The notes under the pieces are model-generated. The model was not told the origin of the DNA, searched no databases, and saw only the letters and a program-made list of their open reading frames with translations. The translations under genes and the position numbers were made by a program. This document shows positions 47,374 through 52,928 of a DNA stretch of 64,000 nt, piece after piece. Location: positions 248,001-312,000 of the forward strand of contig NZ_JBAKFF010000001.1 in the NCBI RefSeq assembly GCF_040838345.1, in the 5' to 3' direction. Within the stretch, counting starts at the first letter, position 1. Every line of letters begins with the position of its first letter. The DNA comes from Spiribacter sp. 1M189 (lineage in GTDB: Bacteria > Pseudomonadota > Gammaproteobacteria > Nitrococcales > Nitrococcaceae).

Positions 47374-48155
47374 GTGGGGCGCCAGTTCGCGGATTCGGGC
47401 TGATCGTCATTGGTGACGAGCTGCTATCGGGAAAACGCCAGGACAAGCATTTGCCGCATCTACTCGGGCTGCTTGCGGAACGCGGTCTGGAGCTTCGCTG
47501 GGTCCGGTTCATCAGCGACGAGGCGCCGCTGATCACCCGGACACTGCGGGAGACGCTGACCGGCGATGATGTCGTTTTCAGTTGCGGCGGGATTGGCGCG
47601 ACGCCCGATGACCGGACCCGGCAGTGCGCCGCGGAGGCATTGGGCCGGCCGCTCGCCTACCATCCGGAAGGTGTGGCGATGCTCGAGGCCCGCTTCGGCC
47701 GTCCCGTGCAGCCGCCGCATCGGCTCAACCTGGTGGCCTTCCCGGAGGGCGCAGATCTGATTCCCAACCCGGTGAACCAGGTGCCGGGGTTCAGCGTCGA
47801 CCATCACTATTTCATGCCGGGGTTCCCGAGCATGGCGTGGCCGATGATGGCCTGGGTGCTCGACCAGCATTATGCGGGCTGGCAGAACCCGGACCGGCTG
47901 GCCGAGCAGGCCATTGCCGTGGATGGTGCCCGCGAAAGCGACGTCATTCCCCTGCTGGAGCGTTTCGAGGCCGATTACCCCGGACTGCGCCTGTCCTGTC
48001 TGCCTACCCTGCGCGACGAGGGGTTCTCCCTGGAACTCGGCCTGCGGGGTGCGCCGGCGGAGGTCGGGCCGGCCATGTCCGTTCTCAGGGTAGCGGTGGA
48101 GGAGCTGGGCTTTGGCTGGCGCGAGGTCGGGTTGAATGACCGCCGACCGGAGTGA
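47370..48155 (+). CDS. CinA N-terminal-like (molybdopterin-binding fold) protein
   Basis: A 261-residue protein with the MoCF/CinA N-terminal domain: LIVIGDELLSGKRQDKH (about residue 10), CGGIGATPDDRTR (about 72) and PGFPSMAW (about 150). The C-terminal nicotinamide-nucleotide amidase domain of full CinA is absent. The remaining 90 residues resemble the connecting KH-type region. Short stand-alone members of this family are common; the function is uncertain (possibly a pyrophosphatase on damaged nucleotides). It starts in the HAD stop. Confidence 0.85.
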   Translation: MSGAPVRGFGLIVIGDELLSGKRQDKHLPHLLGLLAERGLELRWVRFISDEAPLITRTLRETLTGDDVVFSCGGIGATPDDRTRQCAAEALGRPLAYHPEGVAMLEARFGRPVQPPHRLNLVAFPEGADLIPNPVNQVPGFSVDHHYFMPGFPSMAWPMMAWVLDQHYAGWQNPDRLAEQAIAVDGARESDVIPLLERFEADYPGLRLSCLPTLRDEGFSLELGLRGAPAEVGPAMSVLRVAVEELGFGWREVGLNDRRPE

Positions 48156-49287
48156 GCGAACGACGGTCGATATCCGCCGGCATGCCCTGCAGGCCGCCGC
48201 GATCGTCCTGCTTATCGTGTTGGCACCGCTGGTCGGCGCCGGGCTCGCGGGGCATGACGCGGTGTCATTCCTGCGCTTTCCGCCGCGGCCGCTGGAGCCG
48301 GCGCCCGGTAGTTTTACGCCTTGGATTTTCGCGTTCTATGGCCTGCTGATCGTAAGCGTCCTCGCGCCATTCGTGGTGCGTATTCTGCGGAGCGATGTCC
48401 ACAGCGCATCCGGCGTTATCACCAGTGCCGCCGGGTCGCGGCCATTCCCGGTCTGGGGCTGGGCGGCGGTCGCCATGCTCGTGCTGGCCTGGCTGGTTGC
48501 CTGGGTGCCGATACCGGGGCTCGAAGAGGCGCGCCGGCTCAGCTTTACGCCTTTGTGGGTTGCCTACACGATCGGCGTCAGCGCTTGGATTCAGCGGCGC
48601 GGAGGGCGTGTGCTGATGCTCGAGCAACCCCGGCGGTTCCTGGCGCTCTTTCCGGCGAGCGCGATCTTCTGGTACCTGTTCGAGTACATCAATCAGTTCA
48701 CCGGCAACTGGATCTATGCAGGAACCGGCGTAGCTGATCATGAGGCGGTGAACTGGTTCCTGCGCTCGGCGCTGCCCTTCAGTACGGTGCTGCCCGCGGT
48801 GGTCGTGACCCGCGATCTGTTCGCGACCTGGCCGGCCCTGTCCCGCGGCCTCGACGATTTCCTGCCGATTCGGCCGCGCAGACCTGGTGGCCTGGCGGCC
48901 TGGCTCCTATCGGCCGGCGTTGCTGGCCTGGTCGCTGTGGCCGTCTGGCCGGATGCCCTCTATGCGCTGGTGTGGGTCGGGCCACCATTGATCATCGTCG
49001 CGATCCAGGCCGTATCCGGGGATCGCCAACTGTTCTCGCCGGTGGCTCAAGGCGATTGGCGCGATGCGTGGCTCGCCGTGCTCGCCGCCCTTTTCTGCGG
49101 TCTTTGCTGGGAGCTCTGGAATATCTTCAGCCTGGCGCGCTGGACGTACCACATTCCCCATGCCCAGGTGCTGCACGTGTTCGAGATGCCGTTGCTGGGT
49201 TATGCTGGATATCTACCGTTTGGTATCACTTGTATCGTGGCCGCCCAGCTTCTCACCGGGCTCGATCCGCGTGCGCGGTATCGCTGA
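48136..49287 (+). CDS. polytopic membrane protein of unknown function with an internal repeat motif
   Basis: A 383-residue protein with nine or ten hydrophobic helices and no signal peptide. I do not recognise the family by name. It has two similar motifs at helix ends: residues 183-194 (E-Y-I-N-Q-F...N-W-I-Y) and residues 326-338 (E-L-W-N-I-F...R-W-T-Y), both ExxNxF followed by WxY. The second leads into HVFEMPLLGYAGYLPFG, a likely conserved core. The start overlaps cinA by 20 bases. The 63-residue protein and the sodium symporter follow on the same strand, so they may be a unit. Confidence 0.7.
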   Translation: MTADRSERTTVDIRRHALQAAAIVLLIVLAPLVGAGLAGHDAVSFLRFPPRPLEPAPGSFTPWIFAFYGLLIVSVLAPFVVRILRSDVHSASGVITSAAGSRPFPVWGWAAVAMLVLAWLVAWVPIPGLEEARRLSFTPLWVAYTIGVSAWIQRRGGRVLMLEQPRRFLALFPASAIFWYLFEYINQFTGNWIYAGTGVADHEAVNWFLRSALPFSTVLPAVVVTRDLFATWPALSRGLDDFLPIRPRRPGGLAAWLLSAGVAGLVAVAVWPDALYALVWVGPPLIIVAIQAVSGDRQLFSPVAQGDWRDAWLAVLAALFCGLCWELWNIFSLARWTYHIPHAQVLHVFEMPLLGYAGYLPFGITCIVAAQLLTGLDPRARYR

Positions 49288-50983: not shown

Positions 50984-51574
50984 TCAGTCGGTACCCTCAA
51001 GCAGGTCCCGGCGCAGGTTCTTCGAGAGCGGATCATCCGCGTCGAGCCAGATCCCGAAATAGGCCGCGGCGAAGTCAGCGCCGGTCACGGTGCCAACGGT
51101 GGTGCCGTTGAAAAGCAACTGAGTGCCCTTGCCCGGCACGTAATCCATGCGGTATCGGTCGCCATCGCTGACGGCCTGATACATTGAGTGGAACTGCTTG
51201 ATCTTCGGCTCCAGCTTATCGAGTTCGCTGCTGCTGAGCTGTTCTTCGAGCTTGGTTCTCGCGGCCTTGATGATGTCGGCGGCACTGATGTCGTGAAAGT
51301 ACTCGATGGCCAGGCTTCGCGGTGTGTCCCCTGCCAGCACCTGCGCCGTTTTTGTGTCGGCGGGCAGATAGAGACCAGCCGCATAAACGGTGATGACGAT
51401 GCGGTATTTGGCGACGCCCGTCCCGCTCAGCTCGAGCGTCTCGCCGGCGAGCTGCATCTGCTCGCTGAAGCTCGCCCCGTTCTGGTCCACCTCGGCGCCG
51501 AGGGCCATCATCGGCAGCAGCAGGAGAAGGGCGCCGGCGATCATCCACCGCCGGAGGATTGCCAGGCTGGTCAT
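50984..51574 (-). CDS. chalcone isomerase-like exported protein
   Basis: A 196-residue protein with a signal peptide (cleaved near ALGAEV, about residue 26). The domain is of the bacterial chalcone-isomerase-like family: GTGVAKYRIVITVYAAGLYLP (about 52-72), the LAIEYFHDISAADIIKA region and the GTQLLFNGTTVGTVTGADFAAAYFGIWL C-terminus. Bacterial members are not known to act on chalcones and may bind fatty acids. Its start overlaps the DUF3833 gene (ATGA), so the two form an operon. Confidence 0.8.
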   Translation of the reverse strand: MTSLAILRRWMIAGALLLLLPMMALGAEVDQNGASFSEQMQLAGETLELSGTGVAKYRIVITVYAAGLYLPADTKTAQVLAGDTPRSLAIEYFHDISAADIIKAARTKLEEQLSSSELDKLEPKIKQFHSMYQAVSDGDRYRMDYVPGKGTQLLFNGTTVGTVTGADFAAAYFGIWLDADDPLSKNLRRDLLEGTD

Positions 51575-52131
51575 GATGAGGGTTCCTCGGCATCCGCGCG
51601 GCGGAAGAACAGGGTGACGGTGCCGACGCGGAAACCGAACTTGGTCACCTCGGCCTTATTGATGAGGGTGTTCTCGTCGGTGAGATACATCCAGTCATCA
51701 AACTTCAGGTTCCAGGTCCGGTCACCGACGTCCAGCGCCAGCGTGTAGGTCCAGTTAAGCGCGTTGCCGTAGCGTTTGCCGGTGGCCACACCGACTACGT
51801 CACCGGCTGTTCCCTCGTAGGTATGCTCATCGATGCGCTCGATCTCCCAGACGCGACGGTCGGTCTCACCGTCGGCGTAGGTGAAGCGCTCGTCGAGGGT
51901 GATCCGGTCACCCTCCACCGTACCGTCAATGTCGACGGTGAAACGGCGGCGGACTTCGCCGTTGCGGGCCTGGAACATGCCCCAGGCATGGACTTTGCCG
52001 TCGAAGTACTCCTCGATGCGGAATTCGGGCGTTTCACCGACGTAATCGCGGGGTGCGACACCCGCGCAACCCGCCAATATCAGGGCGACGGCGGCGATCA
52101 GGCCATATTTGAAGATGGATGCGCGCGACAT
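51571..52131 (-). CDS. DUF3833 family lipoprotein
   Basis: A 186-residue lipoprotein; the lipobox LILAGC puts the acylated cysteine near residue 22. The body matches DUF3833 (lipocalin-like): PEFRIEEYFDGKVHAWGMFQARNGEVRRRFTVDIDG, ERFTYADGETDRRVW and TYTLALDVGDRTWNLKFDDWMYL. The ATG at 52131 has GGAGG upstream; a longer start at 52170 lacks one. In other gammaproteobacteria DUF3833 genes sit with cfa and FAD amine-oxidase genes; only the chalcone-isomerase-like partner is kept here. Confidence 0.82.
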   Translation of the reverse strand: MSRASIFKYGLIAAVALILAGCAGVAPRDYVGETPEFRIEEYFDGKVHAWGMFQARNGEVRRRFTVDIDGTVEGDRITLDERFTYADGETDRRVWEIERIDEHTYEGTAGDVVGVATGKRYGNALNWTYTLALDVGDRTWNLKFDDWMYLTDENTLINKAEVTKFGFRVGTVTLFFRRADAEEPSS

Positions 52132-52223
52132 TGCAGCCTCCGCTTGCCGGTCTTTCGGATGATTGGGCATAAACGACTGTTGACTCTATCATGAGCCCTG
52201 AATTCACCGTCATAAGGAATGCG

Positions 52224-52928
52224 ATGTCATCCGGGAACGATATCCAGGACCTGGCGAAAAGCGCTGATGTGGTCGTGTTTCATTCGCCGGTGACCGATCT
52301 GGCAGGGCTGGATGAGTTGCTGGAGGACTCGGGTCGGGAGTGGCGTGCCATCGAGATGGGGATGGGCTCGGCCGAAAGTCGCGATCAATTCGCCCGGCTC
52401 AAATCGCTGACCGGTTCCAAAACACTGCCGCAGGTATTCATCAACGGCCATTTCGTGGGTGGCCTACGCGATGCCGAGGCACGGATATCGCTGGCCGACC
52501 GGCATCAGACCGCGGCTGCCTGGATGGGCTATCTGGGTCTGCTGCCATTCTTCGCGGGGGCGGCTGGCCCTTGGTTCGGGCTGGATTGGCTGGCGGGCTG
52601 GCTGCTCGCTTATGGTGCCGTGATTCTGTCTTTTGTCGGCGCGATCCATTGGGGTGTGGCCATGGGCCGACGCAATCCGGCCCCGGAGTGGTTCTACGCC
52701 TCGGTGATACCTGCTCTGGCGGGCTGGATTACCCTGCTTTTACCCTGGCTGGTCGGCCTGCCGCTACTCGCGGCGGCGTTTATCGGCTGGCGGTTCTGGG
52801 AGTACCGCGGTTCCGCGCCGGGATTGCCGCGTTGGTTCCGGCGGCTGCGAACGGCACTGACCATCGGCGCCGTGCTGGGTCTCACGGCGGGCTGGCTGGC
52901 CCTGCTGCCCTTCACAGGTACGGTGTAA
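52224..52928 (+). CDS. cysteine-less glutaredoxin-like domain fused to a DUF3429 membrane domain
   Basis: A 234-residue protein. Residues 1-88 have a glutaredoxin-like pattern: DVVVFHSP strand, LDELLEDSG helix, WRAIEM strand, LKSLTGSKTLPQVFINGHFVGG with the cis-proline and GG. The CPYC active site is replaced by TDLA (residues 24-27) and no cysteine occurs in the domain. Residues 95-234 have four to five helices matching DUF3429 (YLGLLPFF, LLAYGAVILSFVGAIHWG). AAGGA before the ATG at 52224 favours that start over 52191. The 3' end overlaps cardiolipin synthase by 17 bases. The function is unknown. Confidence 0.75.
   Translation: MSSGNDIQDLAKSADVVVFHSPVTDLAGLDELLEDSGREWRAIEMGMGSAESRDQFARLKSLTGSKTLPQVFINGHFVGGLRDAEARISLADRHQTAAAWMGYLGLLPFFAGAAGPWFGLDWLAGWLLAYGAVILSFVGAIHWGVAMGRRNPAPEWFYASVIPALAGWITLLLPWLVGLPLLAAAFIGWRFWEYRGSAPGLPRWFRRLRTALTIGAVLGLTAGWLALLPFTGTV

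Follow-up and report, generated by a model that had tools for sequence, protein, structure and literature searches.

The window, the whole 64,000-nucleotide stretch of DNA that was analysed, carries on its forward strand a gene (52224 to 52925 plus the stop codon) whose 234-residue product joins a glutaredoxin-like domain to a DUF3429 membrane domain. In a genome search it was the sole match within its own genome (G000:C1:300224-300925). The features of the locus are listed below, with the basis of each in brackets.

50984..51574, minus strand: chalcone isomerase-like (PF16036) protein, adjoining the DUF3833 gene (Pfam)
51571..52170, minus strand: DUF3833 (PF12915) protein, divergent neighbour of the fusion, a position shared across the genus and by four more genera of the family (Pfam)
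52163..52192, plus strand: sigma70-like promoter TTGGGC-N18-TATCAT, with a CCCTATCATG-like core that recurs in the genus (by eye)
52224..52928, plus strand: fusion gene, 234 aa, 0 Cys (open reading frame, comparison with genus relatives)
52224..52493, plus strand: cysteine-less glutaredoxin-fold domain, residues ~1-90 (predicted model, fold matches, profile match to glutaredoxins)
52284..52286, plus strand: Ser21, aligned with the Lys through which glutaredoxins bind glutathione and conserved as Ser in 39/39 relatives (profile alignment, family columns)
52293..52304, plus strand: TDLA, residues 24-27, where CPYC is expected; first position Thr in 38/39, Ser in 1/39 (profile alignment, family columns)
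52380..52382, plus strand: Arg53, invariant in 39/39 (family columns)
52425..52433, plus strand: cis-Pro motif LPQ, residues 68-70; L and P in 39/39 (family columns)
52458..52463, plus strand: Gly79-Gly80, 39/39 (family columns)
52464..52535, plus strand: single predicted helix, residues 81-104, leading from the glutaredoxin-like fold into the membrane domain (DSSP of the model)
52509..52895, plus strand: DUF3429 (PF11911) membrane domain, residues 96-224 (Pfam; all-helical when modelled alone)

The start codon ATG 52224 was preferred over an alternative ATG at 52191, because in the genus relatives an ATG stands at the former position or a few codons from it and because the latter overlaps the -10 hexamer TATCAT (52187-52192) of the sigma70-like promoter, whose core recurs in the genus. 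Starts in the relatives were taken as the nearest ATG, so that the invariant Met in their alignment is partly our own choice. Both the CCCTATCATG-like promoter core and a GAATTC-like leader were seen by eye to recur across most of the genus. Rfam models returned no match between 49000 and 56000 at gathering scores. In two other genera (loci L018 and L019 of genomes G016 and G015), GTATCG/GTATAG-like short repeats lie 5' of the fusion and are a possible operator.

An AlphaFold2 model, for which the window protein was aligned with 16 relatives, had a mean pLDDT of 88.7 and a pTM of 0.73. According to DSSP, residues 5-104 follow the order H-E-H-E-H-E-E-H (helix 5-11, strand 16-20, helix 29-36, strand 40-44, helix 50-63, strands 70-73 and 76-79, helix 81-104). 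Foldseek returned 21 PDB matches at E≤0.001, every one a glutaredoxin or a Grx domain, and the glutathione-bound 2fls and 3fz9 are among the matches of Foldseek and VIA-align taken together. VIA-align placed wheat glutaredoxin 5zvl_C at the top (Z 11.2, rmsd 2.8, 93 residues aligned), and human Grx2 (2fls) aligned with Z 9.7, rmsd 2.4 and 91 residues (TMt 0.70). The first ~90 residues are predicted from this model to have a thioredoxin/glutaredoxin fold; the non-thioredoxin fold that the first-pass annotation had named as fatal to its proposal did not appear. The fusion to DUF3429 that it had described also held, PF11911 scoring 96.4 bits against a curated cut-off of 39.1.

From sequence alone, the glutaredoxin assignment would be marginal. 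The Pfam model PF00462 (cut-off 22.9) gave 20.6 bits for the whole protein, 22.7 for the domain and 23.0 in another scan, and its near-cut-off match covers the C-terminal half of the glutaredoxin model. Three of the ten relatives scanned passed this cut-off, and the window protein stayed far under the cut-offs of the NCBIfam Grx models. As for orientation in the membrane, the loops that follow predicted helices 122-148 and 175-197 are rich in Arg, and by the positive-inside rule the N-terminus of the fusion is therefore probably cytoplasmic.

Glutaredoxins have a glutathione-binding Lys three residues ahead of the catalytic Cys. When a profile of the relatives was aligned with human glutaredoxin 2, the CSYC of the latter faced TDLA, T24 standing at the catalytic Cys and A27 at the second Cys, in agreement with the earlier reading of TDLA as the CPYC position. 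The cis-Pro which had been reported as retained was likewise found (L68-P69). The helix said to follow the active site is present in the model, but it begins late, at residue 29, so TDLA would lie in a loop and not at a helix N-terminus.

Relatives were gathered from 59 related genomes, 369 genomes of the class, 54 of the order and a scan of named genomes; the two members L079 and L082, which come from the last of these, may belong to families counted already. When the fetched loci were searched with an HMM in all six frames, 69 distinct Grx-like rows were obtained. Thirty-nine of them scored 52-127 bits with the profile of the group, the most divergent being L039 (52 bits), and the remaining 30 scored at most 42.9. 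The group is named PSG (pseudo-glutaredoxin) in the present analysis. Thirty-three of the 39 distinct PSG domains are fused to DUF3429, and six (L061-L065 and L169) stand alone. PSG is carried by a group of gammaproteobacteria: at least 16 of the 369 class genomes have it, a count made without the unread 37-38-bit matches in G062 and G190. A sample of 398 genomes of the phylum, the window's own included and its classes uncounted, had no other member at E≤1e-9; its four other matches were three Cys-bearing glutaredoxins and a different cysteine-less type, L146. This second glutaredoxin-like domain (G738:C44:27644-27883) reads GMGMNPFPKKARRAL around the CPYC region, lies in a 131-aa open frame and scores 40 bits with the PSG profile.

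The position of the catalytic Cys holds Thr in 38 PSG domains and Ser in one, and Cys in none of the 33 fusions or the six stand-alone forms. It is followed by D (36/39) or E (3/39). The glutathione-Lys position is Ser throughout, and the Arg corresponding to R53, the L-P of the cis-Pro loop and the G-G pair are each found in 39/39, which gives a replacement motif of S..T[DE], R, LP and GG. Among the 30 comparison rows, 16 have the catalytic column, with C in 14, a misaligned CGFS row and L146. The first-pass annotation had left it to an alignment of fusions to decide between lineage-specific decay and a family of pseudo-glutaredoxins, and these columns fall on the side of the family. Its statement that the domain has no cysteine at all is true of the window protein but does not extend to the family: 11/39 domains have Cys elsewhere, so that freedom from cysteine describes the window protein and 28/39 domains.

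Compared with class I/II glutaredoxins (PF00462; human Grx2, wheat and poplar Grx), PSG is alike in predicted fold, cis-Pro loop, GG turn and profile. It differs in having Ser for Lys and TDxx for CPYC, in the later start of the active-site helix and in the fusion to a membrane domain, and the catalytic N-terminal Cys of the CxxC, CxxS or CGFS type is missing. The claim that such a protein cannot be a redox enzyme therefore stands for ordinary glutaredoxin thiol chemistry, although other chemistry may remain. Since Thr replaces the catalytic Cys while the predicted fold is kept, the PSG domain probably binds something instead of carrying out thiol chemistry. One candidate ligand is glutathione or a glutathione conjugate, whose glutathione part would be held by the cis-Pro and GG without a disulfide, occupancy being relayed to the membrane domain. 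The invariance of LP and GG is consistent with such a sensor, as is the presence of glutathione-bound structures among the fold matches; however, the Lys position is Ser in every member, the Cys needed to anchor glutathione is missing, and LP and GG may be kept for folding alone. We regard glutathione sensing as doubtful.

A different account would be decay, in which the cysteines of a once active Grx-DUF3429 fusion were lost in one lineage not long ago and the domain is now drifting. It draws on the genus itself, where the PSG domain is wholly lost from two of 14 genomes, G007 (L111) and G009 (L110). There the promoter, leader and DUF3429 part are kept and the absence is clean; both drafts are MAG-like (84 and 86% complete), the locus itself being unbroken. 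The DUF3429 tree is compatible with one or two losses, and the domain must be dispensable, since these two genomes do without it. Against drift, the catalytic Cys is missing in all members while the replacement motif is kept, and no Cys-bearing Grx domain was found on any of the 60 DUF3429 open reading frames read (33 fused, 27 unfused; further matches in the related-genome and class samples were left out). Rates of substitution (Nei-Gojobori) in six disjoint close pairs also argue against it, dN/dS being as follows.

L001/L002: PSG 0.14, DUF3429 part 0.07
L004/L005: PSG 0.04, DUF3429 part 0.08
L006/L007: PSG 0.10, DUF3429 part 0.18
L012/L013: PSG 0.03, DUF3429 part 0.10
L020/L021: PSG 0.01, DUF3429 part 0.15
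L024/L025: PSG 0.29, DUF3429 part 0.50

PSG thus ranges from 0.01 to 0.29 and the DUF3429 part from 0.07 to 0.50, PSG being the lower in five of the six pairs, and in these pairs the PSG domain is under purifying selection as judged from the codons. Among the 184 pairs listed, distant ones reached a PSG dN/dS of up to 1.4 and were set aside because dS was held to be saturated. With the catalytic Cys missing in 39/39 and dN/dS this low, decay was rejected for the sampled genomes and is very improbable as an explanation.

PSG also appears to be separate from the Cys-bearing glutaredoxins, with moderate support. In an IQ-TREE analysis of 46 rows, one branch, with support 90/78 and present in 100% of 200 bootstrap trees, splits 23 PSG rows from 22 Cys-bearing rows that had been chosen by hand among the comparison rows. 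L146 falls with PSG, on a branch that is long and uncertain.

Proteins of the SH3BGRL type have a Trx/Grx fold without CXXC and act non-enzymatically, according to the available part of PMC12827327. They are, by analogy, the closest parallel to a fold of this kind that functions with no CXXC. PSG resembles the eukaryotic SH3BGR/SH3BGRL proteins in this respect, a weak likeness because it is common to any cysteine-less Grx fold, and the PSG fusion has a membrane domain whereas SH3BGR has none. PF04908, which we take to be the Pfam model of the SH3BGR family, matched none of 12 sequences at E≤1 (the window protein, its domain and ten relatives), and membership of PSG in that family is unsupported by sequence. 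By the same analogy, PSG might be a docking adaptor that binds photolyase, lipid-modifying enzymes or the DUF3429 domain. The SH3BGRL precedent speaks for this, as do the existence of both fused and free forms and an ATGA overlap with photolyase at two loci (below), while the unmatched SH3BGR model speaks against it; we hold the adaptor to be possible, with the odds leaning the other way. Literature matches on inactive or pseudo-glutaredoxins were also inspected, and among those listed none describes the PSG family in its title or the start of its abstract.

The C-terminal part of the fusion is a member of the DUF3429 (PF11911) family, as is Bcmimp1 of Botrytis, and the 27 unfused open reading frames among the 60 read lack the N-terminal Grx-like domain which distinguishes the fusion. 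Modelled alone, the DUF3429 part had no Foldseek match in the PDB at E≤0.001. In VIA-align the highest Z was 9.2, for a designed bundle, and a subunit of the Ycf2/Orf2971-FtsHi complexes reached 8.1-8.2, both under the level that helical bundles can attain by chance; a sequence profile gave one PDB match at E 1.1. No structural kinship of DUF3429 was drawn from matches scoring under that chance level. Plasmid records yielded two matches to the fusion, both within the DUF3429 part only. DUF3429 is present in bacteria and eukaryotes, and deletion of the mitochondrial Bcmimp1 raises ROS, as stated in the available text of PMC4767927; in the portions available of the DUF3429 literature, no bacterial function was found. 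The helix shared by the module and the membrane domain in the model would suit a purely structural cap, aiding the folding or insertion of DUF3429 without any ligand. Such a cap fits poorly with the six stand-alone members, four of whose genomes (G409, G257, G413 and G091) have no DUF3429 match at E≤1e-5, and with a former active site that is among the invariant residues, and we consider it unlikely.

As regards the genomic setting, DUF3833 and chalcone-like genes are the only cluster genes adjacent to the fusion in the window. This pair stands beside the fusion in 16 PSG genomes of family f1, the window's included, and is also found in G007 and G009. In the order sample, DUF3833 is absent from all seven PSG genomes of f5 and present in four PSG-less genomes (G007, G009, G023 and G041). 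The window genome does have a photolyase gene (C1:1362108) and a CFA-type gene (C1:1357434), ~3.5 kb apart and ~1 Mb from the fusion. At five other loci (G198, G136, G179, G274 and L079 of Thioalkalivibrio denitrificans), the fusion lies by genes for an FAD oxidoreductase and a CFA-type methyltransferase (PF02353); four of them add an MFS-like gene and a DUF3833 or chalcone-like gene, two have FolE and one a MerR-B12 gene.

Stand-alone PSG occurs in the order moaB-photolyase-PSG-maeB in G317, G207 and G413. The photolyase stop and the PSG start overlap as ATGA at L069 (5842-5845) and L070 (5835-5838), which suggests translational coupling of the two genes at these loci. In G409, PSG is behind photolyase and TspO and ahead of a CFA-like gene, and in G257 it is near a MerR-B12 gene. 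Labels for photolyase, CFA, FAD oxidoreductase, FolE, TspO, MerR-B12, DUF3833 and chalcone-like genes were checked with Pfam; moaB, maeB, MFS and DUF1295 were labelled by eye.

These associations were counted in flanks that reached at most ~6 kb on either side, and less where a contig ended, with photolyase, CFA-type, CFA-like, FAD oxidoreductase, FolE, TspO, MerR-B12, DUF3833 and chalcone-like genes as the cluster genes. At least one was present at 26/39 PSG genomes, at 1/13 loci with DUF3429 only (L141) and at 0/17 loci of Cys-bearing Grx. Adding G007 and G009, both excluded from the 13, makes the DUF3429-only controls 3/15, and outside family f1 the PSG count is 10/23. The 13 PSG genomes with no cluster gene in their flanks are all seven of f5, G339, G200, G141, G078, L082 and G091. 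Fisher's test gave p values of 0.0003 (26/39 against 1/13), 0.003 (26/39 against 3/15), 0.03 (10/23 against 1/13, outside f1) and 0.02 (by families, 9/16 against 1/11), all of them optimistic because the reference genes were picked from PSG loci after viewing and the relatives are not independent.

Several PSG loci have the same gene types, by gene content alone, as the light-inducible LitR sets (phrB, ufaM, folE and an FAD oxidoreductase; available part of PMC9758184) and the RpoE2-ChrR regulon, which includes phrB and cfa (available part of PMC4336711). UfaM begins furan fatty acid synthesis, as given in the accessible text of PMC7380195. Light-regulon gene types are clear beside PSG in some families and absent in others. 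Unlike the LitR sets, PSG loci did not yield the P. putida LitR operator T(G/A)TACA-N12-TGTA(C/T)A: with at most one mismatch it was found 0 times in 521,633 bp from 44 loci, which include L110 and L111 (without PSG) and cover some places twice, and the box may differ in these bacteria.

Taken together, these features lead us to read PSG as a conserved pseudo-glutaredoxin family that binds in place of thiol-redox catalysis, in a setting of membrane and DNA protection against light and reactive oxygen (probability roughly 0.6). The module is inferred to be a non-catalytic ligand- or partner-binding unit, coupled to an inner-membrane domain in a photo-oxidative or membrane-stress programme. The T-D loop, Arg53, the cis-Pro and the GG turn would form the site for a small molecule or partner protein. 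In the modelled fusion, the last helix of the module extends into the membrane domain, and binding could be relayed to DUF3429; in other species the module is a separate protein, in some of them co-produced with photolyase. The recurring neighbours (photolyase, CFA-type methyltransferase, FAD oxidoreductase, FolE, TspO, MerR-B12 and DUF3833/chalcone-like genes) point to protection of membrane and DNA, and the role in light and reactive oxygen is proposed because of these genes and the raised ROS of the fungal DUF3429 mutant in the part of PMC4767927 cited above. A more specific version, which we think quite unlikely, makes PSG a non-thiol glutaredoxin-fold receptor whose Thr-Asp-Arg site reads a photo-oxidative damage product (e.g. 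an oxidised lipid or a glutathione conjugate) and signals to inner-membrane DUF3429 when fused, or to photolyase and partners when free. Such a receptor would link DNA repair with membrane-lipid remodelling under light.

Read as a family of conserved pseudo-glutaredoxins, PSG extends the glutaredoxin superfamily by a family of bacterial pseudo-enzymes. A conserved cysteine-less Grx module placed on DUF3429, and elsewhere in photolyase operons, is likely to offer a binding site with invariant residues, and annotation through family models would either miss PSG or name it an oxidoreductase.

Further upstream in the window, 48136-49287 encodes a 383-aa protein that looks membrane-like by eye and has no Pfam match at E≤0.001. 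Together with the adjoining gene for a 491-aa transporter-like protein, it keeps its order in most genus relatives with long flanks.
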